From contig NZ_CABPSB010000001.1 in NCBI RefSeq assembly GCF_902459655.1, forward strand, positions 248,001 through 312,000: a stretch of 64,000 bases of DNA, given 5' to 3'. Under the pieces are notes generated by a model, which saw only the letters and a list, made by a program, of their open reading frames with translations, had not been told where the DNA came from and did not search any database. Source of the DNA: Pandoraea anhela. GTDB lineage: Bacteria > Pseudomonadota > Gammaproteobacteria > Burkholderiales > Burkholderiaceae. This document shows, piece by piece, positions 5,609-58,737 of this stretch; within the stretch, counting starts at the first letter, position 1; every line of letters starts with the position of its first letter. The translations under genes and the position numbers were made by a program.

Positions 5609-5802
5609 GAGCAGCCTCGCGTTGGGAGTCGAAAGGAATGCCATGCGCGCGGTTCATCCGTCCGATGTTGCGCCGGATATGCCGCCGGATCAACGCCGCA
5701 CGACGCTTCTACTATACCGCCCGATCGAGCGCGAAGGCCACCCCGGCGGTCATCGTCTGCGCCGCACGACGATGACTCGGCGACCTCACCGTGATGCGAC
5801 GC

Positions 5803-12181: not shown

Positions 12182-12267
12182 GCCCCCTCCCCGGCTGCGT
12201 GAATCAGCAGGCCTCGCAGGGCGATGACGAGAGTTGTGAGTTCGGTGTCGACGCGAGCACGCATGGG

Positions 12268-15200: not shown

Positions 15201-16197
15201 CGTTCAGACGTCCCTGATCCAACGCCCTGATGCCCGCCTGCCGCGCCTTGTAGGCGGGGTCGTTGAGCATGCGCGTGCGCGCCGCCTGCTGCGCGCTCAG
15301 CTTGTCGTAGGCCGCGCGGATATCGGCGTCGTTCGGCGCAAGCGCCAGATAGCGCTGATACAGCGGCAACCACGCAAGGTTGCCGTCCGCCCTGGAGAGC
15401 CCTTTCTGCCATAGCGGCAGCAATGCGTTGAGATCGGCGTTCGGACGCGCCGCCAAGTCCGCCACCATGCGTGTGCCCGCCAGACGGCTCGACGGTCGGT
15501 CGATCATCAGCTCGGCCAGCGACTGCGATGCACGCGAATCCTCAGGCGATAGCTTCGACAGGTTCGCCAGCCCCTGCTGCGCGGCGGGCCAGCCGTTGGT
15601 CGCGTTTGCCTGCGCGCGGTAATACTCCACGCCGAGATCGCCGGTGGGCGGTCCGTCCGGGAACAGCGCCTGATATTCCGCAAACGCGGCGTCGGCCTGC
15701 CCGCTGCGTTGGAGCAAACGGGCGCGGGCGATGCGGGATTTGTCGACGGTATTGACGCGGATCACATCCGCCAGCGCTTTGGTCGCGGGCGAGTTCGGAT
15801 AGCGCGCGCGCAGGGTCTGCAACGCCTTGTTTGCCTGCGCTGGTTTGTTCTCTTCGATGTCGATCTGGCCGAGCAGTGAGAGCACGTCCGGTTGGTCCGG
15901 CTGCACGAGCAACGCCTTTTCGAGCGCAGCACGCGCCAGATCGTTACGGTGCCGCGCTCGCCAGAGCGTTGCGCTGGCGAGCAGCGTGCCGACGTCGCGA
16001 TTCGCGGCCACGGCATCGGGTTTCGTCGTTGCTTTCGCCGCATTGGCCGCATTGGCCGCATTGGCCGCATTGGCCGCGCTGGGCGGATTGGCCGGGGATG
16101 GTGCAGCGGATGGCGCCGGCGCCGCACGCACGTGCCCGCCGCCGGCTGCCATCAGCAGGCATGTCATGCAAGCGGAGCGGATCAGCGTGTCGCGCAA
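12268..16197 (-). CDS. bcsC: Cellulose export TPR/outer-membrane protein BcsC
   Basis: BcsC carries cellulose across the periplasm and outer membrane. About 1,309 residues are predicted: a signal peptide, a long TPR array (repeats such as DQPDVLSLLGQI and NPDGLALLGDI through roughly residue 900), and a C-terminal BCSC_C beta-barrel of about 350 residues ending in an aromatic residue (WSY). The start is uncertain. A TTG at 16197 behind GGGAGG gives a signal peptide with basic residues, while the ATG at 16167 gives one without positive charge. The start overlaps the end of bcsZ. Just after the signal peptide the protein has an AAN repeat encoded by 9-bp tandem units (16037-16081). Confidence 0.93.
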   Translation of the reverse strand: MRDTLIRSACMTCLLMAAGGGHVRAAPAPSAAPSPANPPSAANAANAANAANAAKATTKPDAVAANRDVGTLLASATLWRARHRNDLARAALEKALLVQPDQPDVLSLLGQIDIEENKPAQANKALQTLRARYPNSPATKALADVIRVNTVDKSRIARARLLQRSGQADAAFAEYQALFPDGPPTGDLGVEYYRAQANATNGWPAAQQGLANLSKLSPEDSRASQSLAELMIDRPSSRLAGTRMVADLAARPNADLNALLPLWQKGLSRADGNLAWLPLYQRYLALAPNDADIRAAYDKLSAQQAARTRMLNDPAYKARQAGIRALDQGRLNDAEQSLDAARVKRPNDGELLGSLGLVKMRQGDHKGAQALFAQALRKDPGNAGKWRSLLKTSQFWGAMAEARDARDAGRLADADRLVRGALASDPNNPDGLALLGDIALDDKRERDAETLFTQALKIEPDNDTALRGMITLYSRQQRRTELANLLGDLRRRFPQDKARFDKAEAAALSDDADRAIAEGHNGPALAALERAVALDPGNAWTRYSLASLYRKLRLPQIGREVMAEGMRQPLEPDDRAQMLYAQAIYLNVIDDEAGARESLAQIPAANVTPSIARMRTTLAIRDTARLAREAHAAGNDDDSERRYREALGMAGDDPELIGEVARARVAAGQPDQGLALMRAWLAAHADKPQPDAQLRYAELLNTAERDAELGTFLASMDPATLGADQRDEWQDLQDRLALRQADRARSLGDFRTAQEKLEPLLSRQPPDKRALSTLGDIYFDERRYDDARKIAEDQIRQDPTNQDARLSLVRVLYELQDDEAANRELDRALAEAPPDDVWTQLAAVRRLTAMERYDEAIALNDRLRAQFPDTSAVTMQRGRIAQSQRRYHEAKDWYDQARNQEIVQGALPGYDGMTSAESAIDSLESRRNSYVAAGYEIDEKKGDGGISMFNARAVPLYGQYAVGYDGHVFAQTDYVSADSGDLPLNGTSQFGTLPLLNVDAFRAANPGLLRDYGSKRQKAHGQALMLGYENDWIRADIGHTPIGFPISYVTGGVRLFGNLGRYNYWVDASRRPMTGSMVSYAGAYLPLPEVFGDGKWGGVRRDAITFHASRDFPKWGIFGEASVARLTGENVLNNSEISARAGVDLPLIYKRDMRMNTGVTLFFDSFAQNERYYTYGHGGYYSPQTYVSLTLPLEWYGRTQRWSYYLRGSVSFSQSQEKSMPYFPTNGALQAASGDLTYGSGGGFGVGFSVMGRAEYWVNRHWVIGGQMQFERSDYYAPNRFLLYMRYHFDARRGDVPMPPSPVRPIWSY
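16037..16081. repeat. 9-bp tandem repeat inside bcsC
   Basis: Four exact GCCGCATTG units (16037-16072) are followed by one degenerate unit. On the coding minus strand they encode repeated Ala-Ala-Asn between the signal peptide and the TPR region of BcsC. Because the unit is a multiple of three, changes in copy number would stay in frame. Confidence 0.85.
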
Positions 16198-17441
16198 ACG
16201 GCCTCCCAAGGCACCGCCAGCGTGCCATCGGCCAGGAAGCGAAAACGGGCTTCGTGCCAGCCGAGTCCGAACAGCGAGAGCACCGAACTGTAATAGCCCG
16301 GCGGCGACGCGGCGTCCAATGAGCGCGCGCGATCGGCCTGTCCGCGGGCGAGCGTCGTGTCGCCGACGGCTTGCAACAGCGGCACGAGCGCCGCCGAGAA
16401 GCCGGCGCCACCGGTCTCACCTCCCGGCTTTGGTGTGCCGTCGCGCGTATTGATCCGCTCGGGCGGCGTCCCATGCGCCGCCACGTACTTCAGCATGCCG
16501 CCGAACGCATGCGAAAGCGCACGGAAGTCATCGCTGCCCGGCGCAAGCATACCTGCCCACAGATAAACGCGGATGGCGTTGTAGCTCCCTTCGCCCTGCG
16601 TCTCGGGATCGACGTCGAACCCACGTCCGGCACGGTACATGGCCCACTCGGGGGCGAAGCCCAGCGGCGGCGCCGTGAGCGTGATCTGTTTGAGCGACGA
16701 CGCGATGAGCTGCCTCCAGCCACTGTCGGGAAAGCGCCCCGCGAGACACCTCACCACCTGCATCGGCACATAACTGGGGTTGAGTCGCCACAAGTCCTTC
16801 TCGGGATGAAAGCCGACGGGCGCGGGCAGCAACGTGCGCCCGAGCCCGGGAATGAAATCGGATTCTTCCGACACGATGCGACGCGCCACGAGCGCACCGA
16901 GCGCGGTGTAGCGACGCACGTTCCACAGACGCCCGGCTTCGCCCAGCGCATAGGCGATCCACATGTCGGCATCGCTCGCCGGATTGCTGTCAAGCACCGC
17001 CCACTGGCCGGCCGCGTTCTTGCCCCAGAGCCATGCGGGCAGGTGCGCCGTCAGGTCGCCCTGCGCGAGATTGTTGACGGTCCATTCCAGCACCTTGTCG
17101 AAGGTGGCGCGGTCGTTGGCGATGACGGCAAACATCAACGCGTAAGCCTGCCCCTCGGAGACCGTGCGCAGATCGGGCATGCTGGGGTCGACGACCCGAC
17201 CGTCCTCGCTCACGAAACCGGCTTTGAAGCGAGTCCATGCCGGCCAGTCGACCGACGGGCAGGTTCGGGAAGCGGCAGACGGCGGCGTAGAAGCCGCAGT
17301 GGGTACCGAGATCCCGGACGGCCTCGCGGGTGCCGCTTGCGCGGGTGGCGTCATGCCGGCGAGCATCGGCCCCGCGCCGCAGGCGACGAGCGCCCGCAGC
17401 ACGGCCCGACGGCGCCGCCTGTCAGCATCGGCGCGTGTCAT
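16182..17441 (-). CDS. bcsZ: Endo-1,4-beta-glucanase BcsZ (GH8)
   Basis: BcsZ is the periplasmic cellulase that belongs to most bcs operons and tunes cellulose output. The 419-residue protein has a twin-arginine-like basic N-terminus (DRRRRRAVLRAL) and an Ala-rich cleavage region near residue 37. The GH8 signature residues are visible: SEGQAYALMF near residue 96 carries the proposed acid glutamate and ASDADMWIAYAL near 157 carries a conserved aspartate. The ATG lies directly after the bcsB stop codon, and its ribosome-binding site (GGAG) lies within bcsB, so translation is probably coupled. Confidence 0.94.
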   Translation of the reverse strand: MTRADADRRRRRAVLRALVACGAGPMLAGMTPPAQAAPARPSGISVPTAASTPPSAASRTCPSVDWPAWTRFKAGFVSEDGRVVDPSMPDLRTVSEGQAYALMFAVIANDRATFDKVLEWTVNNLAQGDLTAHLPAWLWGKNAAGQWAVLDSNPASDADMWIAYALGEAGRLWNVRRYTALGALVARRIVSEESDFIPGLGRTLLPAPVGFHPEKDLWRLNPSYVPMQVVRCLAGRFPDSGWRQLIASSLKQITLTAPPLGFAPEWAMYRAGRGFDVDPETQGEGSYNAIRVYLWAGMLAPGSDDFRALSHAFGGMLKYVAAHGTPPERINTRDGTPKPGGETGGAGFSAALVPLLQAVGDTTLARGQADRARSLDAASPPGYYSSVLSLFGLGWHEARFRFLADGTLAVPWEAVCATR

Positions 17442-19802
17442 TTACTTCTCCAGCCGACGTGCCGCGCGACGCTGCAACCAGCCGAAACACTTGAGCGCAA
17501 TCGCGAACGCCGCCAGCAACGCGACGAGACCGACCAGAATCGGATGACTCGAGAGGTGGTAACGAATACGCGTCCACCAGCTCACGTCGCCCACGAAGTA
17601 CGTCTGGCCCAGCCGATACGAATCGATGCGATCGCCGTGGACCACGGCCAGATCACCGTGGATGGCGTTCTTGCCGCTGTCGATGGCGTCGACGACGCTC
17701 AGCAACGCGTCGTCGCTCGATGCGTTGATGGCGACCACCGAACGCGAACTGCTGACCGGCGACTCGAAACCCACCAGGGCCGCGAGCGTCCCCCCGGACT
17801 GTGCGTCCATATGCGCCGGGCCGATCCGGCTGGCCGCGAGTGCCGAGCCGGTCGCGCCGTCGCCCCGATAACCTTGCGGCTGGGATTGCATGACGCGCCG
17901 TGTCTGATCGATGACCAGCGGCAGATTCTTGCCCCATCGGGTCAGCAGATCGGCGGCGTCCTTGCCGCCGACGACCAGCAAGTCGCGATCCTTGAAGCGA
18001 TCCGTCTGCGTCGTGTCGAGCACCTCGAAGCGGTCGGCATAGGCGCCCGTCGACCGGCCGAACTGCCCGAGCGTGGAGAACACCGTTTCCAGCTCGGCCT
18101 TGCCCGGCGTTTTCGACACGACGACAGCCGTCTGCGCGAGATCGGCGTACTTGGTGAACGGAAAGCCGCTGCCGACGAAGAAGCTCAGGTTCGGCATCTC
18201 GGCGTAATGGGGCAAGCCGCTGAAGTCGATGGTCGAGTCGGCGTCGATAGCCGAGCGGGCCGCGTTGGTGATCGTCTGGCTGCACATGCCTTCCTTGTGC
18301 GGCTCCATCGCGAACTGGAACGACAGCGAGTTGCGCGACGCCACCTGGAACGCCGGAATGCGCACTTCCTTGCGATCGGCCATGGTGCCGTCCGAGAGCA
18401 GTTCGACGAGCATATGGCTCTTGTCGGTGCTCGTTCCTGCCGATTGCAGCCGATACGCGCGCACGAACTGGTCGTTGATCGACACGCTCATCGACGAGTC
18501 GTCGGGCTTGACCGGCGGTGTGTAGCGATACTTCAGGTCCATCGGTACGCCGGTGTTTTGCCACGTGAGCAAATCGGCCGGCAGATTGAGCTGGATACGG
18601 ATCGGCCACGGCATATAGCCGCTCGCCTGCAAATCGCTCGGATTCTCGACCAATTCGCCCAGCTTCACGGGACGGTCGGTCCGGACCCAGCGCGGCGCGT
18701 CGTACGCCGGGCGCGGCGGCAACGGCTGGAGCGCTTCGATGCGAGCCGAATCGCCCGAGAGCACGGCGCGGCCGGAGACGAGCGCGAGCGCAGCCGTCTC
18801 CAGATCCTTGGCGTCGCGGCCCTGAACGACGAGCAGCTTGAGCGACGGATCGTTCGGATTCGACACCATGCGAAGCGTAGGCCCGTCCACCTTGGCGAGA
18901 TCGAGCCCCGGCATCATCGTATCGTTCGTGACGAACGCGATCGCATGCCTGGACGGCAAGGTGCTCACGCTGACCGGGAACCGGGTGCGGCGGTAGTCGC
19001 CGATGGCCCCGGCCCACGTCGCCACGACACCGGCCGCATGCACCACGGCGAGCGACGGCTGCGCACCGAAGACGAACGGAATCGACAGGTCACGGTTGTC
19101 GTGCCGGTCGAAGAATGGCGCGGGCAGCGTCGACAGATCGTTACGCAGCGTCAACGCCTGCGTGCTCGTGACGATCTCGCTCTGCGGGCTGATGTCGGCC
19201 CACAGGCTGGAGTGCATCGGGTCCTCGCACTCCATCGTGTAATGGCCGATGAGCACGAGCCGCACGCGATTGAAGCCCGACAGCATGCGCGGATCGAGCG
19301 GAATCTCGCGCAAGAGATTCTTGCCGCCGTCCTGCTTGTTGAAAGGCAACGTCGCGATCAGCTCTTCGTTCAGATACACCTTGAGCTGCGAAAGATCGGG
19401 AATCAGCGCGGGCGAATAGGTGTAACGCAACCGGAGCAAGGCCGACGCAACCGTCTGATCGAGTCGGATTCCGAAGTTGACGTCGCCCGACCCTTCGGTG
19501 CCGCGCAGGCGCAGCCCGTTCGTCTGCCCCAGTTGGGCGAACGTGACGGTACGCTGGCTCGTGCCGGGCGCGGCCGGGACGGTTGTGACTGTTGTTGCGG
19601 TCGTGACACCGGTATCCGGTAAAGCGGTCGCGGCGGAGGCGGTCTCCGGTGCCGGGGCGGCGCCCGCAGGCGCCTTGCCTGTGCGGCCTCCCGCAGGCGC
19701 TGCTCCCGCAAGCATGGCACCCCCGGGGTCCATCGCTGCGGCGACCAGCAGGCAGATGGCTGTGACCTTCGTGTATCGCGACCAAGACGCTCGAAGCTGC
19801 AT
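17442..19802 (-). CDS. bcsB: Cellulose synthase periplasmic regulatory subunit BcsB
   Basis: BcsB partners BcsA and guides the glucan through the periplasm. The 786-residue protein starts MQLRASWSRYTKV with a signal peptide, then a Pro/Ala-rich linker, then the alternating carbohydrate-binding and flavodoxin-like domains. A single C-terminal membrane segment (VGLVALLAAFAIALKCF) anchors it to BcsA. The start at 19802 is preferred over the open frame reaching 19955, because the signal peptide begins here and GAGG lies upstream. It is the first gene of the operon, so the bcs promoter should lie between 19803 and about 20050. No clear sigma-70 or sigma-54 element was found there on the minus strand. 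Confidence 0.94.
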   Translation of the reverse strand: MQLRASWSRYTKVTAICLLVAAAMDPGGAMLAGAAPAGGRTGKAPAGAAPAPETASAATALPDTGVTTATTVTTVPAAPGTSQRTVTFAQLGQTNGLRLRGTEGSGDVNFGIRLDQTVASALLRLRYTYSPALIPDLSQLKVYLNEELIATLPFNKQDGGKNLLREIPLDPRMLSGFNRVRLVLIGHYTMECEDPMHSSLWADISPQSEIVTSTQALTLRNDLSTLPAPFFDRHDNRDLSIPFVFGAQPSLAVVHAAGVVATWAGAIGDYRRTRFPVSVSTLPSRHAIAFVTNDTMMPGLDLAKVDGPTLRMVSNPNDPSLKLLVVQGRDAKDLETAALALVSGRAVLSGDSARIEALQPLPPRPAYDAPRWVRTDRPVKLGELVENPSDLQASGYMPWPIRIQLNLPADLLTWQNTGVPMDLKYRYTPPVKPDDSSMSVSINDQFVRAYRLQSAGTSTDKSHMLVELLSDGTMADRKEVRIPAFQVASRNSLSFQFAMEPHKEGMCSQTITNAARSAIDADSTIDFSGLPHYAEMPNLSFFVGSGFPFTKYADLAQTAVVVSKTPGKAELETVFSTLGQFGRSTGAYADRFEVLDTTQTDRFKDRDLLVVGGKDAADLLTRWGKNLPLVIDQTRRVMQSQPQGYRGDGATGSALAASRIGPAHMDAQSGGTLAALVGFESPVSSSRSVVAINASSDDALLSVVDAIDSGKNAIHGDLAVVHGDRIDSYRLGQTYFVGDVSWWTRIRYHLSSHPILVGLVALLAAFAIALKCFGWLQRRAARRLEK

Positions 19803-20054
19803 GTGAGATGCCTCATCTGTTCTTGTGCTGCATATTCGCCACATCCCAACGCGCGACACCCCAGTGACCCGACGTCTCATCACGTCGTCGTCAGGCGATC
19901 CGAAAATCGCCAAGGCCCGGCGGGACAGCGTTGCTCGTGTGTCTGGAAATGGCACGTTGCGCCATGCTAGCTTGCCTCGGTGTGAATGAGCAAGCAGGCG
20001 TTGGCCTTCTAGTGTCGTACCGCAGGCACATCGGCCGGTCGGGCGGCACGATCA

Positions 20055-40912: not shown

Positions 40913-43900
40913 CTATGCATCGCTGACAATCGCATGTCCTTGCGCGCGCAGCCAGTCGTTCCAGGCAGTATCGAGCGCGTCGAACGCAGCCTCCATCTGG
41001 CCGACGGATGCCTGCGGCGCGAGATGTTCGACTTGCGCGGCAAGTGACGCCAGCGAACTCAGTCCGAACGCCATGAAACCACCACGCAGTCGATGCGCAG
41101 AGTGACGCAGCGTCTCACGCGAAACGTCGGCCAGTGCGGCACGGCAATTCGCAATGTCCTGATCCGCGATCTTGACGAACGTGTCGAGCATGTCCGACAA
41201 CGGCAGGCGCCAGTCTTTCGGCGACGCCGCTTCCGGTGCAGGCTTGGGTGCACTCTCGATCAGGCGCGTCGACGCCGGGAGCGGTGCAATCTCGACGCAA
41301 AGCGATGGGTAGCGCGAACGAACCAGTTCAATGACTCGCAACAGCGAACGTGCATCCACCGGCTTGTAGACCACCGCGTCGTAAGGCGACTTCGCTTCAC
41401 GGTCGTTTCTTAGCGTGACGTCCGCCGTTGCCACCACGACGGGCACATGCGGCGCGCGCGCCTTGATATCCGTTGCCAGCGCGTGACCGGAGATATGGGG
41501 CATGTTGGCGTCGGTGATCACCAGCATGTGCGACTCGGCATCGAACGCATCGAGCGCTTCACGCGGGTCGTGATAGCAGTCGACCATCGCGCCCAGCCCT
41601 TCCAACTGACGCGACAGCAACATACCGCTAATGGGATGGTCGTCCGCCACGAGCACGTACCAGCCGGCCAGGGGCTTCACCCGTGCCTGAGCGTTCGCCG
41701 TGCCCGGCACCGGCAAATCTCCGTTGGCCGCCAAGCCGGGACGCGGCGCCGCCCCCAGCGCCTCCCAAAGCTCAGCTTGCTGGAACAGCGCAATATCCCT
41801 CGGCCAAACCGGCGCGCTGCCGGTCGGGCGATCCACCGGCGTGGCGCGCAGCAAATAGACTTCCGCGCCCGCCATCCCGCGCACCGGCCATTCGTCGGCA
41901 AACATGAGCAGCCCCGAATCCTGCTCACGTCCCACGCCGGTCGACCATGACACGGCGTCGTCGTGCCGAACCGGTTGGAAGCCGGCGCGACGAATCAGGG
42001 CATCGAGATACCAGTGACGACGCTCCATCGCGCTGACGTAAGCGAACGTCTCGCGAGAATCCACGACAATCGGGGCCTCGCTATCGGGCGCCCACGGCAG
42101 ATGGAGCGTAAAGCGCATCGTCGTGCCCTTGCCCTCCTCGCTGTCGACCGCCAGTACACCGCCCAGCATGCCGACGAACTGATGCGAGATCGCCAGCCCC
42201 AGCCCGGTGCCGTGCTGCATGCCCGGCTCCGTCGTGCTTTTACCGAACGGCCGGAACAGATCCGCCAGATCCGAGGCGGCGATGCCCACACCGCTATCGC
42301 TCACGGTGAAAGCCACATCGCAGCCTTGCATATCGGCGCGCGTGACCATCGCGCTGAATGCCACGTATCCCTTTTCCGTGAACTTGATGGCATTGCCCAC
42401 CAGATTGGTGACCACCTGACCGAGACGCAGCGCATCCGTGTGCACCGCGCGCGACAGTTGCGGGTCGATCATCCAGTCGAGCGTGAGCCCCTGCAAACGC
42501 GCACGTCCCGTGAACGACAAGCCGACCGCCTCAAGCTCCTTGAGCAGCGAACAGTCGCGCGAATTCAATTCGAAGCGTCCGACCTGAATGCGCGAATAGT
42601 CGAGCAGATCGTTGATGAGGTCCAACAGGTTGCGCGTCGAACTCTCCATCACATCCACGTAGTACCGATGGTCGTCGCCCAGATTCTGCGCACTGAGCAA
42701 TTCGAGCGATGCCAGCGTGCCGTACAGCGGCGTGCGCATTTCATGGCTAACCGTGGTGAGGAACACGTCCTTGGCGCGATTGGCACTCTCGGCCGCCAGA
42801 CGTGCCTTGCGTTGCTCCAGCTCGAAGCGACGCTGCTCGGTGACGTCGGACAGCGTGCCGATCAGCACCGGTTGTTCGCGAAACACCGTGTCGACGAAAC
42901 TCACGGCGTAGTGGCGCTCGCCCGCATCGTCGAGCGCGCTCAACAAACGACGCACCGGACGCGCAACCACCCCGCTATGAAGCTGACGATACATGCGCGT
43001 CAGCTCGCCGTCGCCGAGGTGCCTTAGCAAATCGACGGTGCCCGCATAGGCGGGATTGCTCATCACCACCGCCGGCTCGAAAGGATCGATGATCGCCATG
43101 CCGACGGGCGCCGTCTCGATCAGGGTCTGCGTGAACGCGTCGCGCTCCAGCAGCGCGGTCGTGCGCTGACGCGCCGGTTCGATGATCCGCTGTCGCATGT
43201 ATCGCATGCCTGCATACACACCGCCGGCATACAACAGCAGCAGCAACGTCGCCCCGAGCAGTAATGTGGCGTTCTCGCGCAGCAACTGCGCCGGACGGAC
43301 GGCATATCGAACGAACCACGGCGTGGACGCCAGCCGACGCTCGAAAACGAGCCGCTGACCGTCGGTGCGCAACGTCATCTGCGCGCCGCCGAAGAGCGGC
43401 AGGGTGACGAGCGTACGCAAATGCCCCAACGACGAAAGCGGCAGCCCCGCGCTGGCAATCACGAGGCCGTCCTCCGAAATCAGTTGCAGCGCTTCACCGG
43501 TGCGCTCGAGGTGCCGCATGCGCGGCGGCACGATCATTTCGGGCGACATGCTGGTGCCCACGTAGAGAACCAGATGCCCGTTGAGATCCCGGATCGGCAC
43601 GAAGCTCGACACGGTCTTCAAATGGGTGACGGGATGTTTGTAGTTGTAGGTCCAGAACGGACCGTCGCTGTTGCCTCGAATGCGGGCGTGGTAACGCTCC
43701 ACCTTGTTGATCTCGGCGAGCATCGCCTGCGTATCCTGTGCGAGGTCGTCAGACGTGAACGCCTCGCGGCCGATGGCGGGCCGATACGTCGCGAAGGCGC
43801 CATCGGCGGAAATGATGAAGGTTTCGTCCTGCGCGTCGAGCGGGCTCCAGAAGTTGGCGTCGAGCACCATGAGCCGCAGCGTCAGGCGCGCCAGCAACTC

Positions 43901-44302
43901 TGCGCGCTCCTGCGAAATGTCCGCGAGCTTGACGATCTCGAACTCGCTGTCCCACCCCACACCGTTGATGCGCCGGGCGGTGCCGACCGGCATCGACATG
44001 AGCGGCTTCAGAATGCGGTCGGTCAGCGCCTGCGTCGCCCCGCCAGGGCGAATCGAACTCGCTTGTGTGGCCTGCGCCATTGCGCGAGCCTGCTCATTGA
44101 AAATCTCGAGGTCGCGGATTTCCCTGCCGACGGCCGCAAAGAACGACTCCGTTTTCTGTCCGCTTTGCCAGAGCGTGCCGAACAGGGCATACGACACCGC
44201 AGCGACCCAGACCGACAATCCAAACAGAAGTGCGAGCAGGCCACCAATGCGAAGCAGGCGGCCGGCGATCGCGATGTCACGCGTCATCGTTCTGGCAGGC
44301 AT
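40913..44302 (-). CDS. Hybrid sensor histidine kinase with REC and HPt domains (RcsC/BvgS-like)
   Basis: This 1,129-residue inner-membrane kinase has a first membrane helix near residues 20-45, a periplasmic sensor of about 290 residues and a second helix near 345-365. A PAS-like domain (GMAIIDPFEPAVVMSNPAY) is followed by HisKA with the phospho-accepting His near 521 (VSHEMRTPLYG) and HATPase (NLVGNAIKFTEKG, GTGLGLAIS). Between HATPase and the receiver lies an extra alpha/beta segment, as in RcsC. The REC domain has its Asp near 931 (ITDANMPHISG) and a C-terminal HPt has His near 1070 (SAHRLRGG). The start at 44302 has GGAG three bases upstream; ATG 44287 is an alternative. The regulator gene ends 29 bases upstream. 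Confidence 0.92.
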   Translation of the reverse strand: MPARTMTRDIAIAGRLLRIGGLLALLFGLSVWVAAVSYALFGTLWQSGQKTESFFAAVGREIRDLEIFNEQARAMAQATQASSIRPGGATQALTDRILKPLMSMPVGTARRINGVGWDSEFEIVKLADISQERAELLARLTLRLMVLDANFWSPLDAQDETFIISADGAFATYRPAIGREAFTSDDLAQDTQAMLAEINKVERYHARIRGNSDGPFWTYNYKHPVTHLKTVSSFVPIRDLNGHLVLYVGTSMSPEMIVPPRMRHLERTGEALQLISEDGLVIASAGLPLSSLGHLRTLVTLPLFGGAQMTLRTDGQRLVFERRLASTPWFVRYAVRPAQLLRENATLLLGATLLLLLYAGGVYAGMRYMRQRIIEPARQRTTALLERDAFTQTLIETAPVGMAIIDPFEPAVVMSNPAYAGTVDLLRHLGDGELTRMYRQLHSGVVARPVRRLLSALDDAGERHYAVSFVDTVFREQPVLIGTLSDVTEQRRFELEQRKARLAAESANRAKDVFLTTVSHEMRTPLYGTLASLELLSAQNLGDDHRYYVDVMESSTRNLLDLINDLLDYSRIQVGRFELNSRDCSLLKELEAVGLSFTGRARLQGLTLDWMIDPQLSRAVHTDALRLGQVVTNLVGNAIKFTEKGYVAFSAMVTRADMQGCDVAFTVSDSGVGIAASDLADLFRPFGKSTTEPGMQHGTGLGLAISHQFVGMLGGVLAVDSEEGKGTTMRFTLHLPWAPDSEAPIVVDSRETFAYVSAMERRHWYLDALIRRAGFQPVRHDDAVSWSTGVGREQDSGLLMFADEWPVRGMAGAEVYLLRATPVDRPTGSAPVWPRDIALFQQAELWEALGAAPRPGLAANGDLPVPGTANAQARVKPLAGWYVLVADDHPISGMLLSRQLEGLGAMVDCYHDPREALDAFDAESHMLVITDANMPHISGHALATDIKARAPHVPVVVATADVTLRNDREAKSPYDAVVYKPVDARSLLRVIELVRSRYPSLCVEIAPLPASTRLIESAPKPAPEAASPKDWRLPLSDMLDTFVKIADQDIANCRAALADVSRETLRHSAHRLRGGFMAFGLSSLASLAAQVEHLAPQASVGQMEAAFDALDTAWNDWLRAQGHAIVSDA

Positions 44303-44331
44303 AGACTCCAACGTCTGTCGTCGCGGCGGAC

Positions 44332-45006
44332 TCAGGCGGCACTCGGCGCTTCGGCGTCGCTCTCACGCCCGAACTGCACCGGGCTCGACACATGCAATTT
44401 GAAAAGCTCCATGTCGGTGCGGCACCCCAGCTTGCACATCGCCATGCGCTTCTGGTTGTTGATCGTTTTGGCCGAACGCTTGAGTGCACCCGCAATCTGC
44501 GACACGTTCTGACCGTCGAGATACATGCGCAGCACTTCCATCTCCTTCGGCGAGAGCGGACGACGCGCCGTCGGCTTACGTCGCATCTGCTCTTCGAGGA
44601 TCTGCTCCGCGCGCCCGCCCCGGTAACTCATGCCGCGGCGGCAACGCTCCACGCACACCGTGATTTCGCGCAGGTCGTCCGATTTCGTCATCACGCCCAG
44701 TACGCCACAGCTGTCGAGAGCATGAATGATGGCGGGCTGCTCGATCGACGTGAACACGATGATCTTCACATCGGGGTATTTGCGACGCACGCGATTGATC
44801 ATGACGAGACCGTCGCCAAAAGCGCCGCCCGGCATGCAGTAATCGGTGATCAGCACGTCGACGGAGTTCGTCTCGAGCGCCTTGAACAACTCGGTCGAAT
44901 TCGAAACGGGAGGCAGGACGTGAAAACCCGGGTCCGGGGACAGCATTTCACGCAGCGTGGAGGCAACGATCGGATGATCGTCTGCAATCAGAATCTTTAC
45001 CATCAT
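44332..45006 (-). CDS. RcsB-like response regulator
   Basis: The 224-residue regulator has a receiver with DDHPIV at the start and phospho-accepting Asp near residue 55 (LITDYCMPGG). The C-terminal LuxR-type helix-turn-helix begins LSPKEMEVLRMYLDG (about residue 150) and continues RSAKTINNQKRMAMCKLG. By eye the receiver and DNA-binding segments match enterobacterial RcsB (VLITD-MPG--GDG, LSPKE-EVLR, KTI--QK--AM-KLG) more closely than NarL or BvgA. It is translated with AAGGATC upstream and precedes the hybrid kinase, which should phosphorylate it through the HPt domain. Confidence 0.9.
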   Translation of the reverse strand: MMVKILIADDHPIVASTLREMLSPDPGFHVLPPVSNSTELFKALETNSVDVLITDYCMPGGAFGDGLVMINRVRRKYPDVKIIVFTSIEQPAIIHALDSCGVLGVMTKSDDLREITVCVERCRRGMSYRGGRAEQILEEQMRRKPTARRPLSPKEMEVLRMYLDGQNVSQIAGALKRSAKTINNQKRMAMCKLGCRTDMELFKLHVSSPVQFGRESDAEAPSAA

Positions 45007-45210
45007 TTGCGAGATCCTTTCAGAAGAATTCAGCCATGGGCGCGCGCCACCCTTCGCCGTGTCGATGCGTCATGGCTTCCCAAAAGAGAATGTGCGTCTT
45101 GCCAACGCACGCGTTGGTCCCTCAGGCGTAACCGCATTGCTGCCAGGCGACTTTGCGGGACGGGATATACCGGCGCATGGGCCACGCAGCGCCCTCGCCC
45201 GTTGTCAGCC

Positions 45211-45786
45211 CTACCCGACGATATCGGCCGCTCTGGGGCCGTCGACGGTAGTCCACGCCGAGCACGTCTTGTGCCCTGTCAACCGGGATGTGCCCGAGCC
45301 GATGACCGGCTTGACACAGTAACGAATGCGAACGCCTCGCAAACCCGCCGACGGCATCATCTCGCGCGCGCGTCCGACGACACGAATGCGTGTCGGTCCG
45401 GATGCCGCCTCCCACAGATGCACACTGTCGGTCTCAGGCCAGTCCGCCATCCAGCGATACGTACCGCTCACGACGACGCCGACCTGCGGCGTACCACTCA
45501 TCTTCACCGCTGCCGCCACCGGTCGCAACCGCGATTCGACCTCTCGCGGTGCGGCAACCGGTAACTCCGCCCTCGACAGCGACGCCCCTTCGCTTTCGGA
45601 TTCCGAAGCGGGGCCACTCACAGTCGCCGTCGACGCCTTGTATTCGCTACATCCCACGAGCAGCGCCACGACCAGCACGCCGCCGAAGGTTGTCAATGTC
45701 GTCATCGCGCGTCGTCCCGCCGCCTGTCTGGCATTCAGGCGGCGGGACGAATTGGGCAGGAAAGCGTCAACGTGTGTTGTGTTCAT
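45211..45786 (-). CDS. Putative lipoprotein next to the Rcs-like pair
   Basis: A 191-residue protein from ATG 45786; residues 30-50 form a signal segment ending in the lipobox LLVGC, so the mature protein would be lipidated at the cysteine. An ATG at 45705 (MTTLTTFGG) would give a shorter signal without basic residues. After a Ser/Glu-rich linker the C-terminal part looks like a small beta-rich domain (VVVSGTYRWMADWPETDSV) with two cysteines (RYCVKP and KTCSAW) that could form a disulfide. The family is unknown. It lies 204 bases upstream of the response regulator on the same strand. Confidence 0.72.
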   Translation of the reverse strand: MNTTHVDAFLPNSSRRLNARQAAGRRAMTTLTTFGGVLVVALLVGCSEYKASTATVSGPASESESEGASLSRAELPVAAPREVESRLRPVAAAVKMSGTPQVGVVVSGTYRWMADWPETDSVHLWEAASGPTRIRVVGRAREMMPSAGLRGVRIRYCVKPVIGSGTSRLTGHKTCSAWTTVDGPRAADIVG

Positions 45787-46197
45787 CGGTCCATTACCAA
45801 TCGCATCGCCGCGTGACATCTGAACGTTACGCGTCATTTTTACGACCAGCGGAAATATAGGATAAATCTACAAAACCCTACCGTTTTGGAACTGTTTATA
45901 GGAAATATCCTAGTCCAAATTAGGAGGAACACCGTTCGCGATTCGCGCGGCCCACGCATCTCATTCCAATCGAATGCGGGAATAACTCAGATGACGTAGT
46001 ACGAACGCGCATGCAACGTTCTGATGGACAGCCGCATGAAGAAAAGATTCATTTGGAAGGTGACTGTTGCGCAAACCACAGTCGTCGCGCGGTGTAATAC
46101 GCGGCCGTAATGACCGCGTAATCAAGCAAACGCCCGCCGATTTGATAGGCGAGTTTTATGGGCGTAATGGGTTTTCGCAATTACCGCTTTAAGCGAA
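45787..46197. other. 411-bp intergenic region, comparatively AT-rich
   Basis: This spacer lies between the starts of the lipoprotein gene and the stop of the TauE/SafE gene. It is much richer in A and T than the coding DNA on either side, especially 45838-45925 and 46120-46200. It contains a palindrome (45899-45912), two GGAAATAT direct repeats exactly 50 bases apart (45851 and 45901) and the 12-mer at 45818. A 24-codon ATG frame near 46035 is too short to support. Confidence 0.6.
45899..45912. promoter_or_regulatory. Palindrome resembling an RcsAB box
   Basis: TAGGAAATATCCTA is an inverted repeat with 5-bp arms. It agrees at about 10 of 14 positions with the enterobacterial RcsAB consensus (TAAGAATATTCCTA, from memory). 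A weaker relative, TAGGATAAATCTA, is at 45858-45870. Both lie upstream of the lipoprotein gene of the RcsB-like locus. Confidence 0.5.
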
Positions 46198-47040
46198 TCA
46201 AATCCCGAACGCTTTGACGAACATGCCGAGCGCGACGGCGGCCATCAGCGACGAAAAGATTTGCTGGAGTCGGGATGCCGCGAGACGCGGGGCCAGCGCG
46301 CGACCGAGCAACATGCCTGCGACAGCGCCGATGACGAATATCCAGCCTTGTTCACCGGGGTGCATACCGTGCCACCATGCGTTGGCAACGGTCCCGGCAG
46401 AGATGAGCGCAATGACGAAAAGCGATGTCGCCACGACGCCGTGTACGGTGATATCGGTGAAACGGCGCAGCGCTGGGACGATCACGAATCCGCCGCCAAC
46501 GCCCAGCAATCCCGAGGCAAAGCCCGACACCGCCCCGATCATCCCCAGCGTGCCGGCCACACGTCGCGTCCAGTGAAGCCGGCCTGTGGACGGATTCATG
46601 CGGCAAGGCGGCGATGATTCACATGGCACAGACGTCTCACCATGCGCCGCCTTTACCGCAGCGCCGCGCGACGCGCGGTACATGCGCCCGGCCACGATCA
46701 GCATCGCCATGGCGAACAGGCCGACAAGCCACCGCTCCGGCAGTCGATGCGCCGTCCAGCTCCCGATCGGCGCCAGGCACACACCGACTCCCGCCATCAG
46801 CACCGCCGCGCGGTAACGCACGATGCCGGCGCGCAGTCCCTGCGCACTGCCGACGGCCGCACTGGCACCGACAGCGAGTAACGCCACCGGCCCGGCCTGC
46901 GGCACCCCCCAGCCAAGGCCGAACACCAGCGCCGGAACAGCGAAGATGCCGCCTCCCGCGCCGGTCAGCCCCAACACCAGACCGACGGCGGCACCCAGCA
47001 CGGCGGCCACTGGCGAAGCACTTGAGAGATCGGCAAACAT
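46198..47040 (-). CDS. Sulfite exporter TauE/SafE family permease
   Basis: The 280-residue protein has about eight hydrophobic segments. GLVLGLTGAGGGIFAVPAL near residue 20 and the partly repeated SGFASGLLGVGGGFVIVPAL near residue 175 are the duplicated TauE/SafE signatures. Family members carry organosulfonates, sulfite or other anions across the inner membrane. A gap of about 240 bases separates it from the CoA transferase gene. The substrate is not evident from the context. Confidence 0.88.
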   Translation of the reverse strand: MFADLSSASPVAAVLGAAVGLVLGLTGAGGGIFAVPALVFGLGWGVPQAGPVALLAVGASAAVGSAQGLRAGIVRYRAAVLMAGVGVCLAPIGSWTAHRLPERWLVGLFAMAMLIVAGRMYRASRGAAVKAAHGETSVPCESSPPCRMNPSTGRLHWTRRVAGTLGMIGAVSGFASGLLGVGGGFVIVPALRRFTDITVHGVVATSLFVIALISAGTVANAWWHGMHPGEQGWIFVIGAVAGMLLGRALAPRLAASRLQQIFSSLMAAVALGMFVKAFGI

Positions 47041-47215
47041 GGGCGAAATCCGGTAGGAAACGATTCGGCTCGAAAGCTAAATCACTATTTGTCATATGCT
47101 TATGACGATGAATTATATAGAAACGTCCGCCTTAGGAAAAGTCCCGCTTCGCCTGCGGATCCGCTTGCGCGGCAAGGGGAAAGGACAGTCGGCGGCAATG
47201 CGTAACCCGTCCGCC

Positions 47216-54344: not shown

Positions 54345-54622
54345 ATGTGAGGCCCCTGCCAGCACTGCGGCATGGCGTCGCATCGCGCCACGTCACCGCT
54401 CGATCATGACACCCGACCTGCGCCGTCGTGCGCACTGCGTCATGGGAAAACGTGCGCGTTGCGCGTATATCTCCGACACCCGCCGAGCGGCATTCCCCAG
54501 GGATATTGGGATCATTCCGAAAGTGCATTTATCGGTCGTATTTCGGGCAAATGCATTCATAAACTACGTAAAAAGCGTCCGAAACCGAGTGCGTGAACGG
54601 GCGTGATGCGCACGTAATCTGA

Positions 54623-54689: not shown

Positions 54690-55217
54690 ATGAACCGACC
54701 GTTGGTTTGTCTGGCCTTCACCGGCATCGTCGCGGCACTCACGCACGGCGGCCCGTCGCACGCCGCCGTCTACTCGAATGGCTCGGCAACCGCGCAGATG
54801 CGGGTGCAGCTGACCATTCTGCCCGGCTGTACCATCGCCGCCACGCCCATGACATTCAACGCCGTGCAAGGTTCGGCGACCGGCCCGGTGGCGAGCACGT
54901 CGTCGCTCACGGTCGTCTGCACGGCGTCCACGGGATACAACATCGGCCTGAATGCCGGGACCGTGCCGAATTCCACCGAGACGAACCGGCTGCTGGCCGG
55001 CACGCTCACCGGCAACACCACGACGATTCCGTTCGGCCTGTTCCAGGATGCCAACTACGCCACGCCGTGGGGCAACACGCAGGGCTCGAACACGCTGAGC
55101 GACTCGGGCACCGGGGTGGTCAAGACCTACACGGTCTACGGTCAGGCGACGCTCTCGGCCACCATGCCGGCACCGGACGTCTATTCCTCTACGGTGACGG
55201 CAACCGTCTACTTCTGA
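54690..55217 (+). CDS. Csu-type pilus major subunit (spore coat U domain)
   Basis: The 175-residue protein has a signal peptide ending near GGPSHA-AVYS. One spore coat U domain follows: an N-terminal hydrophobic motif (MRVQLTILPGCTI), two cysteines and a C-terminal beta strand (YSSTVTATVYF). This domain defines pilins of the archaic (sigma) chaperone-usher systems such as CsuA/B of Acinetobacter. The start ATG 54690 has an AAAGGAG site. It is the first gene of the operon, as in csuA/B. Pili of this type mediate attachment to dry abiotic surfaces. Confidence 0.9.
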   Translation: MNRPLVCLAFTGIVAALTHGGPSHAAVYSNGSATAQMRVQLTILPGCTIAATPMTFNAVQGSATGPVASTSSLTVVCTASTGYNIGLNAGTVPNSTETNRLLAGTLTGNTTTIPFGLFQDANYATPWGNTQGSNTLSDSGTGVVKTYTVYGQATLSATMPAPDVYSSTVTATVYF

Positions 55218-55232
55218 CGCATCGGGTCCATC

Positions 55233-56000
55233 ATGACGATCAAGAGTCCCGCGAGACCCGTCGTCCGGCGACCTGCGGCATACGCCTACGGCGGCGCGTT
55301 CGTCGCGTTGCTCACGCTTTGCGTGACCGACGGCAACGGGGCGACGCTGCAAGTCTCGCCCGTCATCGTCAACATTCTTCCCTCGCAGCCCGCCACCACA
55401 CTGACGCTCGGCAATTCCGGCGACCTGCCGATTCACGGCCAACTGCGGCTTTATGCGTGGACGCAGCGCAACGGCGACAACGTGCTCACGCCCACGCAGG
55501 CCCTCATCGCCAGTCCGCCTATCTTGCGCATCGAGCCTGGCGAGCGTCAGATCGTGCGGCTCGTGCACGTGGCGCGCAAGCCCGACGGCAACGAACAGAG
55601 CTACCGGCTACTGGTGGACGAACTGCCGTCGGCCGAGGCTACGCCCTCGGACGGCGTGTCCATTCGTCTGCGATATTCGCTGCCGGTGTTCGTACAGACG
55701 AGCCATTCGCGCGCCCCGTCGCTGCATTTCGACGTGCGTATGGCGCAAGGCGAACTGGAAGTGCGTAACGACGGTGAGCGACACGCGCAGCTCGGCGCAA
55801 CGCGGGTGCTCGATGCGTCCGGGCGTAGCGTCGAGCTCACGCGCGGACTGCTCGGCTACGTGCTCGCGGGGCAGTCACGTCGCTTCGCCGTGCGCTGGCC
55901 GGCCGGTGCACCGCCCGTCGCCCCGTTCACGGTGGAATCGCGCATCGACGCGGTGCCGATGCGCTTTGCCGCAGACGTCGCATCGGATGGCGAGCGTTAG
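55233..56000 (+). CDS. Periplasmic pilus chaperone (CsuC-like)
   Basis: The 255-residue protein starts 15 bases after the major subunit. It has a long signal peptide (residues 1-37, then ATLQVSPVIVNI) and a two-domain immunoglobulin-like chaperone fold. The conserved stretch ERQIVRLVHVARKPDGNEQSYRLLVDELP is the pilin-binding G1 and F1 region. Archaic chaperones are longer at the G1 end than FimC, in keeping with this length. Its last bases overlap the start of the usher gene. Confidence 0.88.
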   Translation: MTIKSPARPVVRRPAAYAYGGAFVALLTLCVTDGNGATLQVSPVIVNILPSQPATTLTLGNSGDLPIHGQLRLYAWTQRNGDNVLTPTQALIASPPILRIEPGERQIVRLVHVARKPDGNEQSYRLLVDELPSAEATPSDGVSIRLRYSLPVFVQTSHSRAPSLHFDVRMAQGELEVRNDGERHAQLGATRVLDASGRSVELTRGLLGYVLAGQSRRFAVRWPAGAPPVAPFTVESRIDAVPMRFAADVASDGER

Positions 56001-58737
56001 CCGTGCCGCCGCCCGCCGCGTCGGATTTCCCCCGGGGCGCGCCGCATCGTCGCACGCCGGCGCGGGCGCGGGCGCGGGGTGCATAGCCGTTGCGGCGTCG
56101 ATGACCGTCGCCCTCGTGGCCTGCCAGGCATGCCAGGCAGGCGTGACATCCCAGGCATCCGCCACATCGGCCACATCCGCCACATCCGCCACATCCGCCA
56201 CATCTGCCACATCGGCCACATCCGCGACATGCGCGGAGAATCCGGCGGCGTCCGCGTTCGGCGTACACGAGGACGCCCGGGACCTGCCCGCCCGCCGGGC
56301 GCGCCCGGCATGTCCCCCGCATACGACCGGCACGGCGCTGTTCGACGACACCGCGCTGACCACCGCGGGCAGCACGATGCCGCCTCGCGGGGGCAGTCCG
56401 TCGGGAATCGCCCGGCTCGACGGCCCCTACATACTCGAGGTCATCGTCAACGGCGAATCGACGGGGCGCATCGCCCCCTTTTCACGGCGTCGGGGCCGCT
56501 GGTTCGCGAAGGCCGGCGACCTGCGCGCGCTCGGACTATCGCCCGATCGGCTGCCGGCCGGGGACGCCACCGACGTCGCACTCGATTCGCTCGATGGCAT
56601 TCGCACCGCGTACGACGCCTCACGTCAGACGCTAGCGCTCGACGTCGGTGACATGTGGCTCGCGCCGTACCGTCTCGGCAGCCCTCAGCCGGTGGTCATC
56701 GGCGCGACCGCAGACCCCGGCGTGATCGTCAACTACGATGCCTACGTGCAACGCGACCGTTTCACCCGCGCGTCGCTCTGGAGCGAAGTTCGCGGCTTCT
56801 GGTCGGGCGGCACGGTACAACAGACGGGCCTTGCCGAGCACTCGCGCTGGCGGCACGGCTATCGTCGCTACGACACCTGGTGGCAGCACGACGACCCGTC
56901 GCGTCTGACCACCTGGGTGGCAGGCGACCTCATCACCGGTTCGCTCTCCTGGTCGCGGTCGCTGCGCATTGCGGGTCTGCAATGGCGACGCAACTTCGCG
57001 CTGCGCCCCGATCTCGTGACCTTCCCGATCCCCGCGTTGCGCGGCAGCGCGGTCGTGCCGTCCTCCGTCGATCTGTATCTCGACGGCGTGCGACGCATGG
57101 GCGGGCGCGTGCCGCCGGGCCCGTTCGTCATTCAGGAGACACCGGGCCTGACCGGCGATCTGCAAGCGAGCGTGGTGACGCGCGATGCGCTCGGGCGCGA
57201 ACAGATCACGACCGTCCCCCTTTATGTCGACCCGCGCCTGCTCGCACGCGGCTTATCGAGTTTTTCCGTGGAAGCCGGTCTGCCGAGAGACGATTACGGC
57301 GTTCGCTCGTTCGCCTACCGGCATCATCCGGTCGCATCGGTGGCTGCGCGCTACGGCGCGACCGACACCGTCACCGTCGAAGCGCAGGCGCAAGCCGGGC
57401 GACGGCTCGCGCTGGGCGGCGCCGGTGCGCTGGTCGCGCTCGGGCGCGGCGGCGTCGTCAGCGCATCGATGTCGATCTCCGGCGGGCGCGGCGCCGGCAG
57501 TCAATGGAGTGCCGGCTATCAATACCTCTCGCGCCGGCTCAGCATCGACGCGCAAATGATCCGAACCGCGGGACGGTATCGCGACATCGCGACCCTTGAC
57601 GGAGCGCCTGTGCCGCACGCGAGCGATCGTGTGACCGTTTCCCTGCCGTTCGGTCGCAGCAGCACGGCGTCGCTGGCATGGTTCGCACAGCGCGTATCGC
57701 GGCAGCCGGCCACGCGCGTCTTGTCCGCCAGCCTGACGCTGCCCGCAGGCACGCGCGGCATGCTCTCGATGGGAGGCTTTCGCGACTTCGCCCGCCGACG
57801 CTCGCACGGGGTCTTCGCCATGCTCAGCGTATTGCTCGGCGGCAGCGCCGACGGGGCGAGCGCGGCGTTGGGCAATGCGTCGTTCAGTCAGCAAGGCGGT
57901 CAGACGCAGGCATGGGTCGGCGCCAGTCGCCCCCCGGATTACCACGGCGGCTGGGGATGGCAGGTGCTCGGCGGCCGTGCTTTCTCGCAGCGCACGATGC
58001 AAGGCCAGGTGCAGTATCTCGGACGCCACGGCGAAATCTCCGCGCTCGCGCAACGCGTGGGACGCCAGTCGGGGGCGGCACTCGGCATGACCGGCGCGCT
58101 CGTCGTCATGGACCACAGCGTGCACGCCGCGCGACGCACCTACGACGCCTTCGCGCTGGTGAGCACCGACGCGCAGGCGCACGTGCCGGTGTTGCGCGAG
58201 TCGGTGCCTGTCGGACATACCGATTCGCGCGGCTACTTCCTCGTGCCGGATCTGAACGGTTACGAGGCGTCGCGCATCGGCATCGACCCCATGCATCTGC
58301 CCGCCGATCTGGAAGTCGCCGCCACCGAGCGGCGCGTAGCGCCGCAGGCACGCAGCGGCGTACTTGTGCATTTCCCGGTGCGACGCTACCGGGCCGCGCT
58401 CGTCACGCTCGTCGACACGACAGGACAGCCATTGCGGCCGGGGACGTCGGTACGTCACGTGCAAAGCGGCATCGTGACGGTCGTGGGGTACGACGGTGAA
58501 GTGTTCGTCGACGCCCTTGGCGCGCGCAACACGCTCGAAGCGCGCGACGCGCGCCAACGCTGCCGCGTCTCGTTCGACTGGACGACGCCGCCCGAGGGAC
58601 AGATCGCCCGCGTAGGGCCGCTCGCGTGCGTGGCATTCGGCACATTGGCCGGAGACAAGGCTTCGCCCCCGCCCGCGGCGAAGGACACCGATGGCGCGCC
58701 CGCCCCCGCCCCATCGCGGCAGGAGAACCGCTCATGA
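55987..58737 (+). CDS. Outer-membrane pilus usher (CsuD-like)
   Basis: The 916-residue usher is the assembly platform for the pilus. The start ATG 55987 overlaps the chaperone stop. Residues 1-40 act as signal peptide, followed by a Thr-Ser-Ala repeat (about 58-80) not found in other ushers, then the N-terminal domain (about 145-270), a beta-barrel with plug, and C-terminal domains. The segment VRRMGGRVPPGPFVIQETP is a typical usher motif. The final 25 residues overlap the tip subunit start as ATGA. This is longer than the common 780-850 residues because of the insert. Confidence 0.9.
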   Translation: MASVSRAAARRVGFPPGRAASSHAGAGAGAGCIAVAASMTVALVACQACQAGVTSQASATSATSATSATSATSATSATSATCAENPAASAFGVHEDARDLPARRARPACPPHTTGTALFDDTALTTAGSTMPPRGGSPSGIARLDGPYILEVIVNGESTGRIAPFSRRRGRWFAKAGDLRALGLSPDRLPAGDATDVALDSLDGIRTAYDASRQTLALDVGDMWLAPYRLGSPQPVVIGATADPGVIVNYDAYVQRDRFTRASLWSEVRGFWSGGTVQQTGLAEHSRWRHGYRRYDTWWQHDDPSRLTTWVAGDLITGSLSWSRSLRIAGLQWRRNFALRPDLVTFPIPALRGSAVVPSSVDLYLDGVRRMGGRVPPGPFVIQETPGLTGDLQASVVTRDALGREQITTVPLYVDPRLLARGLSSFSVEAGLPRDDYGVRSFAYRHHPVASVAARYGATDTVTVEAQAQAGRRLALGGAGALVALGRGGVVSASMSISGGRGAGSQWSAGYQYLSRRLSIDAQMIRTAGRYRDIATLDGAPVPHASDRVTVSLPFGRSSTASLAWFAQRVSRQPATRVLSASLTLPAGTRGMLSMGGFRDFARRRSHGVFAMLSVLLGGSADGASAALGNASFSQQGGQTQAWVGASRPPDYHGGWGWQVLGGRAFSQRTMQGQVQYLGRHGEISALAQRVGRQSGAALGMTGALVVMDHSVHAARRTYDAFALVSTDAQAHVPVLRESVPVGHTDSRGYFLVPDLNGYEASRIGIDPMHLPADLEVAATERRVAPQARSGVLVHFPVRRYRAALVTLVDTTGQPLRPGTSVRHVQSGIVTVVGYDGEVFVDALGARNTLEARDARQRCRVSFDWTTPPEGQIARVGPLACVAFGTLAGDKASPPPAAKDTDGAPAPAPSRQENRS
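56161..56223. repeat. 9-bp tandem repeat in the usher gene
   Basis: Seven units of GCCACATCC or close variants (56161-56223) encode a repeated Ala-Thr-Ser. An eighth, more degraded unit follows. The array lies between the signal peptide and the usher N-terminal domain and is in frame, so copy-number changes would keep the protein intact. Confidence 0.9.

Follow-up and report, generated by a model that had tools for sequence, protein, structure and literature searches.

An RcsB-family two-component operon of Pandoraea with a predicted link to an adjacent archaic pilus operon

Pairs of RcsB-like response regulators and RcsC-like kinases are already in print from outside Enterobacteria, as MrgRS, RocS1–RocA1, PvrSR/RcsCB, and CblSTR. 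Here, we analyse a lipoprotein–regulator–kinase operon on the minus strand of a 64,000-nucleotide stretch of the Pandoraea anhela genome (contig NZ_CABPSB010000001.1, positions 248,001 to 312,000), which we call the window. An initial annotation had described an Rcs-like pair outside Enterobacteria at this locus; the pair is indeed found, but it is not new in view of the published examples. What is new is a conserved box at both the lipoprotein and the pilus promoters. We consider it probable that the operon is a Pandoraea member of an RcsB/RcsC-like, often pilus-linked two-component family, predicted from its sequence to control both itself and the adjacent Csu/SCPU pilus operon through this box.

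In Pseudomonas aeruginosa, RocS1–RocA1(–RocR) and PvrSR/RcsCB likewise combine a response regulator carrying a helix–turn–helix (HTH) domain with an unorthodox kinase that has its own histidine phosphotransfer (HPt) domain. According to the accessible parts of PMC2696094 and PMC3842833, these systems govern chaperone–usher (Cup) fimbriae, and a site resembling the RcsAB box is present in the cupD1 promoter. Unlike these systems, whose chromosomal proteins we compared by description only, the Pandoraea operon is headed by a lipoprotein gene, and its neighbouring pilus is of the archaic Csu/SCPU type. A scan of 18 window proteins found no EAL domain such as that of RocR and PvrR; no genome-wide search was made. 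In Burkholderia pseudomallei, the MrgRS regulator is likewise co-transcribed with a kinase of about 118 kDa and is 28–31% identical to RcsB and BvgA proteins; the description in the accessible part of PMC1557856, on which our comparison is based in place of the sequence, mentions no lipoprotein. CblSTR of Burkholderia cenocepacia, also compared by description only, likewise uses an HPt relay and controls cable pili, but unlike the present operon it has two kinases (PMC3842833, accessible part).

With the enterobacterial Rcs system (RcsF/IgaA/RcsC/RcsD/RcsB) the locus shares the regulator family, the kinase homology from the second transmembrane segment (TM2) to the receiver (REC) domain, and the type of box. 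It differs in that the HPt lies within the kinase, RcsF and IgaA are unmatched, the kinase insert is not recognisable as ABL, and the predicted target is a pilus. Among the matches listed in literature searches on Pandoraea, one of them a paper on a dioxygenase, none concerned this operon; the accessible part of PMC5192318, on another Burkholderiales biofilm operon, does not mention RcsB.

Family placement of the regulator and the kinase

The operon comprises a lipoprotein gene (45837–45211), the response regulator gene (45006–44332; 224 aa), and the gene of an unorthodox hybrid histidine kinase (44311–40913; 1132 aa), all on the minus strand. The genes, their coordinates and strand, and the palindrome upstream were confirmed as initially annotated. 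The gene order, with the lipoprotein adjoining the pair, is kept in 27 of the 28 Pandoraea genomes that bear the regulator (at least 79% identity), and a contig end interrupts the 28th; four of the 32 Pandoraea genomes lack the regulator. All close relatives of the regulator on named contigs (18 of 18) come from Pandoraea.

By Pfam, the regulator consists of a Response_reg (REC) domain, in which the phospho-acceptor D55 is present, and a GerE (HTH) domain. RcsB is its top NCBIfam model, at 138.2 bits against 80 for the next, and also its nearest solved structure by sequence in the Protein Data Bank (PDB). However, the score falls far below the curated cut-off of 235 bits for the RcsB equivalog (NF008098), which was reached in none of the 200 genomes sampled across the order. 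In a 57-row tree, from which BvgA was left out, the regulator lies within a 36-row RcsB-like clade (support 100/96), apart from EvgA, FimZ, NarL, and UvrY. Forcing the Pandoraea rows with EvgA was rejected by the approximately unbiased (AU) test (p 0.001), as was forcing them with RcsB alone (p 0.023); when the nearest relative, G023_A, was added to the latter group, p was 0.185. On account of the curated cut-off and the constrained trees, we class the regulator by its sequence as an RcsB-family protein and not as a demonstrable RcsB orthologue.

Within Burkholderiales the RcsB-like clade is broad, and it includes several members closer to RcsB than our regulator, whose identity to E. coli RcsB is 35%, against 42–45% for several other beta-proteobacterial members. 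Three paralogous RcsB-like regulators in the same genome score 189 (contig C10), 129, and 120 bits against the RcsB model. The match to RcsB motif by motif, as first claimed, stands in so far as the motifs MPGxxxGDG and KTIxxQKxxAMxKLG are missing in EvgA, NarL, UvrY, and FimZ; they are, however, common to the wide family, with variation, and not specific to RcsB. As for the surroundings of the three paralogues (L129, L130, L131), one has no kinase match within 20 kb, one lies near a TcfC-type usher, and one is accompanied by a hybrid kinase and an open reading frame (ORF) with a YadA anchor.

The kinase contains HisKA, HATPase_c, Response_reg, and Hpt domains in this order, each matched above its Pfam cut-off, and the phospho-acceptors H523 (HisKA), D934 (REC), and H1073 (HPt) are all present. 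It therefore carries a full H–D–H chain, and no separate RcsD-type protein would be needed, in line with the early observation of a kinase with its own HPt. Two hydrophobic stretches (residues about 12–47 and 347–369) are accompanied by a variable periplasmic part and a linker, where a PAS_8 match stays below cut-off (E 0.16). Variation among Pandoraea orthologues is greatest in the periplasmic part, the HATPase–REC insert, and the linkers.

RcsC is the top NCBIfam model of the kinase at 281.3 bits (TorS follows at 280), far from the 920 bits of the curated RcsC equivalog (NF008099). The alignment to RcsC forms one stretch, from TM2 through REC. Other beta-proteobacterial kinases match RcsC better, at 373, 338, 332, and 324 bits, versus 239 for the kinase described here (210 with RcsC as query), and in other genomes similar kinases also adjoin RcsB-like regulators. 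The operon thus has the features by which RcsB/RcsC-like unorthodox two-component systems are recognised, namely an RcsB-like regulator and an adjoining kinase with REC and HPt.

The additional HATPase–REC segment that was initially likened to that of RcsC is indeed present; it spans 144 aa, compared with 133 aa at the same place in RcsC. Among 12 kinases including these two, the insert measures 133–147 aa in six and 24–44 aa in three; the lengths for the C7 paralogue, G023, and G339 kinases were excluded for a wrong motif position. No likeness to the sequence of the ABL domain was found: the insert has no Pfam match at E 1 and no significant PDB profile match, and its hhalign comparison with RcsC ABL gave P 0.12–0.17. 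An identification with ABL thus finds no support in the sequence, the observed similarity being one of length and position.

The genomic context of the family was judged for ten neighbourhoods of RcsB-family relatives by annotation, Pfam, or ORF list; two plasmid stretches carried no annotation, and other regions were checked for kinases only. Pili or surface proteins lie beside the relatives in six of the ten. On plasmids, these neighbours are a CupB-type cluster in P. aeruginosa and fimbrial operons in two Burkholderia cases. The other three are the TcfC-type usher and the YadA-anchor ORF near paralogues in the same genome, and, next to G023_A, a surface protein of DUF11/SdrD type.

Boxes at the operon and pilus promoters

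Alignment of the window with 17 further contigs reveals two conserved blocks upstream of the lipoprotein gene, GATrTTTCCTATAA and a degenerate copy, GATTTATCCTATATTTC, with one contig (L018) departing most. In the window, these correspond to the palindromic box TAGGAAATATCCTA at 45899–45912 (strand not assigned) and to GTAGATTTATCCTATAT at 45855–45871 (minus strand), the latter closer to the lipoprotein gene. Since the palindrome is conserved across the genus, it is more than a chance occurrence. A 17-base form of the first block is found with 0–1 mismatch in 27 of the 32 Pandoraea genomes; in 26 of them it lies at the lipoprotein promoter, and in G026 at the end of another contig. The reversed-pattern control gave one match across all 32. 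These 27 genomes all bear the regulator, and the box is absent from the four genomes without it; the remaining regulator-bearing genome (G028) has the most divergent regulator of the 28.

The palindrome had been described as close to the RcsAB box, and it agrees with the RcsB box of E. coli flhDC at 12 of 14 bases. Its agreement with the RcsAB consensus TAAGAATATTCTTA, as printed in the accessible part of PMC4381331, is 9 of 14. In E. coli RcsB, K180 and S184 contact the TTAGGAA half-site of the flhDC promoter (PMC5829831, accessible part), and the residue aligned to K180 is conserved as K180 in our regulator.

On the plus strand of the window, an SCPU (Csu-type) pilin gene (54690–55217) is the first of an archaic chaperone–usher operon, in which it is followed by the usher gene (55453–58737, plus strand; the ORF start is probably too far upstream). 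The promoter region of this operon, the predicted target, contains the box TGGGATCATTCCGA at 54507–54520 (plus strand). In all 25 genomes with the orthologous pilin, TRGGANNWTTCCKA occurs within 300 bp upstream of the gene, about 150–230 bp from the ATG, exactly in 22 and with one mismatch in three. The best matches at paralogous SCPU promoters (four of four examined, from a longer list) and at the distant one of G028 have 3–4 mismatches, and only 4 of 1200 shuffled sequences came within one mismatch of TRGGANNWTTCCKA. An upstream alignment of the window with 18 of 20 orthologous regions (L242 and L246 lack an SCPU gene at this place) places the site in a conserved stretch flanked by poorly conserved ones. 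Of the 28 genomes with the regulator, 25 carry the pilin orthologue; none of the four without the regulator does. Control of the chaperone–usher pilus by the operon is predicted from this conserved promoter box.

Across the 6.05-Mb genome, the exact pattern TRGGANNWTTCCKA occurs in six places and its reversed control in none. Two of the six are the lipoprotein and pilus promoters, and none lies beside the loci of the three paralogous RcsB-like regulators. The TAGGANNNNTCCTA form, at up to one mismatch, is rarer than its reversed control (18 places versus 66), and genome scans with other motif forms gave mostly scattered sites.

Several other sites and genes were noted in these scans. A box-like TCGGAAAATTCCCA (L257 near 1501; L290–L303) precedes, by about 90 bp, a short ORF and a following PF13471 transglutaminase-type gene, which together we take to be a lasso-peptide-like cluster; conservation of the promoter block extends to 14 genomes, all picked by exact match, and being biased by this selection it was not counted. 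In four related genomes, a matching site is found about 80–95 bp upstream of the apparent start of an ORF for a 474-aa membrane protein (L227–L229 near 5445–5734; L230 near 5880), and in L230 the site falls inside the ORF as called. Another match, TGGGAAGTTTCCGA (L258 near 1501), recurs across the genus in a leader that by eye resembles a thiamine pyrophosphate (TPP) element. Upstream of the sulfite-exporter (TauE/SafE) gene at 46198–47040, the window and 18 related regions (of which L235 repeats L006) were aligned, and most share a strongly conserved element, about TCTATATAATNNNNNNGTCATAAGCATATGAC, whose pattern is unlike the box. The two biofilm systems initially reported nearby are presumably the archaic chaperone–usher operon starting with the SCPU pilin at 54690 and a cellulose operon (BcsA, BcsB, GH8, BcsC; window 8733–19955), in which the window scan gave no box match at up to one mismatch.

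The lipoprotein

The likely start of the lipoprotein is the ATG at 45786, which is the better conserved one in alignments of Pandoraea upstream regions and proteins. The protein is built of a variable linker followed by a conserved domain that holds C174 and C192, the two extra cysteines recognised at the outset. Together with the lipobox C63, both are invariant in all 14 aligned members. Given the Ser at position +2, the lipoprotein is presumably sorted to the outer membrane.

No known family accounts for this protein. The window lipoprotein has no Pfam match at E 10, and the 14-member set gives weak, scattered matches (PsbQ at E 0.0092 and others, each in 1–3 of the 14 members) and a weak PDB match to a phage tail fibre (E 0.0037). 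Beyond Pandoraea, 150 genomes sampled within the family yielded two weak matches only, at E 1.9e-4 and 5.7e-4. The AlphaFold model has a mean pLDDT of 42, with an all-beta C-terminal part, and was too poor for a fold search. The lipoprotein is thus lineage-specific, and any role is one that we infer.

The lipoprotein had been proposed as an RcsF-like sensor, a proposal that profile, genus-wide, and pairwise tests rule out. The RcsF profile PF16358 matched none of the 14 members and nothing in the 32 Pandoraea genomes, with a positive E. coli control, and hhalign aligned 17 columns around the lipobox only. RcsF has four cysteines that form two disulfides (PMC5651002, accessible part), while the lipoprotein has two besides that of the lipobox. 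The argument that the gene sits where an RcsF-like sensor would be expected also fails, because in E. coli rcsF (0.22 Mb) and rcsDBC (2.31 Mb) lie well apart. The IgaA profile PF07095 likewise found no match in the 32 Pandoraea genomes, its E. coli control being positive.

A more speculative possibility, which we regard as distinctly unlikely, is that the lipoprotein acts as an operon-encoded sensor or feedback brake on the kinase, without IgaA or RcsF. The locus would then have arrived independently at a compact equivalent of Rcs envelope sensing, and its regulon would consist of two promoters, its own and that of the archaic pilus.

Between the lipoprotein and regulator genes (window 45050–45150, minus strand), 14 aligned Pandoraea sequences share conserved hairpins, with compensatory changes in 3 of 24 predicted pairs. 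These hairpins are possibly an attenuator that would set the level of the regulator relative to the lipoprotein.

A proposed circuit and its alternatives

In the circuit that we propose, the variable periplasmic domain of the kinase would sense an envelope or surface signal. The kinase would autophosphorylate at H523 and relay via D934 and H1073 of its own HPt to D55 of the regulator. Dimers of the phosphorylated regulator would bind the TRGGANNWTTCCKA boxes upstream of the lipoprotein gene, resulting in autoregulation of the operon. Binding to the box upstream of the adjacent Csu/SCPU operon would, as the most likely sign, activate pili and surface attachment. Activation appears the likelier sign because in P. 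aeruginosa RcsB activates cupD and RocA1 activates cupB and cupC, as reported in the accessible parts of PMC2696094 and PMC3842833.

A number of observations weigh against this circuit. The pattern TRGGANNWTTCCKA was drawn post hoc, after both promoters had been seen, and the Pandoraea genomes compared are related and not independent. When the window is searched from the lipoprotein box alone with as many as three mismatches allowed, one further site is found, that at 54507–54520; it is reached only at three mismatches and by itself is at chance rate. This pilus box agrees with the flhDC box at 9 of 14 bases and with the printed RcsAB consensus at 8 of 14, and the residue aligned to the base-contacting S184 of RcsB is N184 in the regulator. 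Conservation in the pilus promoter also extends to TGCGCGTAT, to CTACGTAAAAAGCG, and to the region of the ribosome site. The conserved and seemingly unrelated DNA of TGGGAAGTTTCCGA matches the pattern too, including, among the matches listed, in two genomes without the regulator (G023 and G025). A one-mismatch box upstream of the sulfite-exporter gene (47133–47146) was dropped, as it is not conserved among the aligned upstream regions. Two genomes (G016 and G018) keep the operon and have no SCPU match. Finally, no pilus or adhesin was found in four of the ten neighbourhoods, those of a Serratia plasmid, a B. multivorans plasmid, the C10 paralogue, and G030, the last two judged from ORF lists only.

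Three other readings were weighed. The operon may belong to the RcsB family while its boxes are bound by an RcsB-like paralogue or an unrelated factor, with the pilus operon not a direct target. Any of the three RcsB-like paralogues could recognise the box; its pattern, moreover, is post hoc, picks out a stretch that is not the only conserved one upstream of the pilin, and matches other conserved sites. Against this stand the absence of an exact box beside any paralogue locus, the occurrence of boxes both at the promoter of the operon itself and at a pilus gene 9 kb away in the same window, and the joint absence of operon box and pilin orthologue from the four genomes without the regulator; we hold this reading to be possible, if on balance unlikely. 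A true compact Rcs system, with RcsB and RcsC orthologues and the lipoprotein as an RcsF-like envelope-stress sensor, appears very improbable. The compact analogue initially proposed stands as regards an RcsB-like regulator and an unorthodox kinase, for which RcsB and RcsC are the top models, and it agrees with the continuous TM2-to-REC alignment and with a box resembling RcsB sites. It fails in that both proteins lie far under the curated cut-offs and a clade of the query with RcsB only is rejected, though not once the nearest relative is included. The C10 paralogue is nearer to RcsB (189 versus 138 bits), other beta-proteobacterial kinases match RcsC better, RcsF and IgaA are unmatched in 32 of 32 genomes, and the lipoprotein aligns with RcsF at the lipobox only. 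We give hardly any credence to an ordinary NarL/EvgA-type two-component system whose likeness to RcsB would be merely that of LuxR/FixJ-type regulators in general. The occurrence of the regulator's motifs, in varying form, across a wide family agrees with such generic likeness, but the same motifs are missing in EvgA, NarL, UvrY, and FimZ. The clade support and the rejected EvgA grouping (BvgA being left out) also place the regulator with RcsB, as the initial annotation had anticipated.

We therefore favour an RcsB-family operon that would control itself and the neighbouring pilus. Pandoraea are opportunists in cystic fibrosis, and in this genus the conserved box would tie an RcsB-family relay to archaic pili, a predicted regulon that can be tested directly and cheaply. 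The box further suggests that DNA recognition of the RcsB type extends beyond the enterobacterial capsule system. The lipoprotein, for its part, may be a sensor partner that a single genus has acquired.

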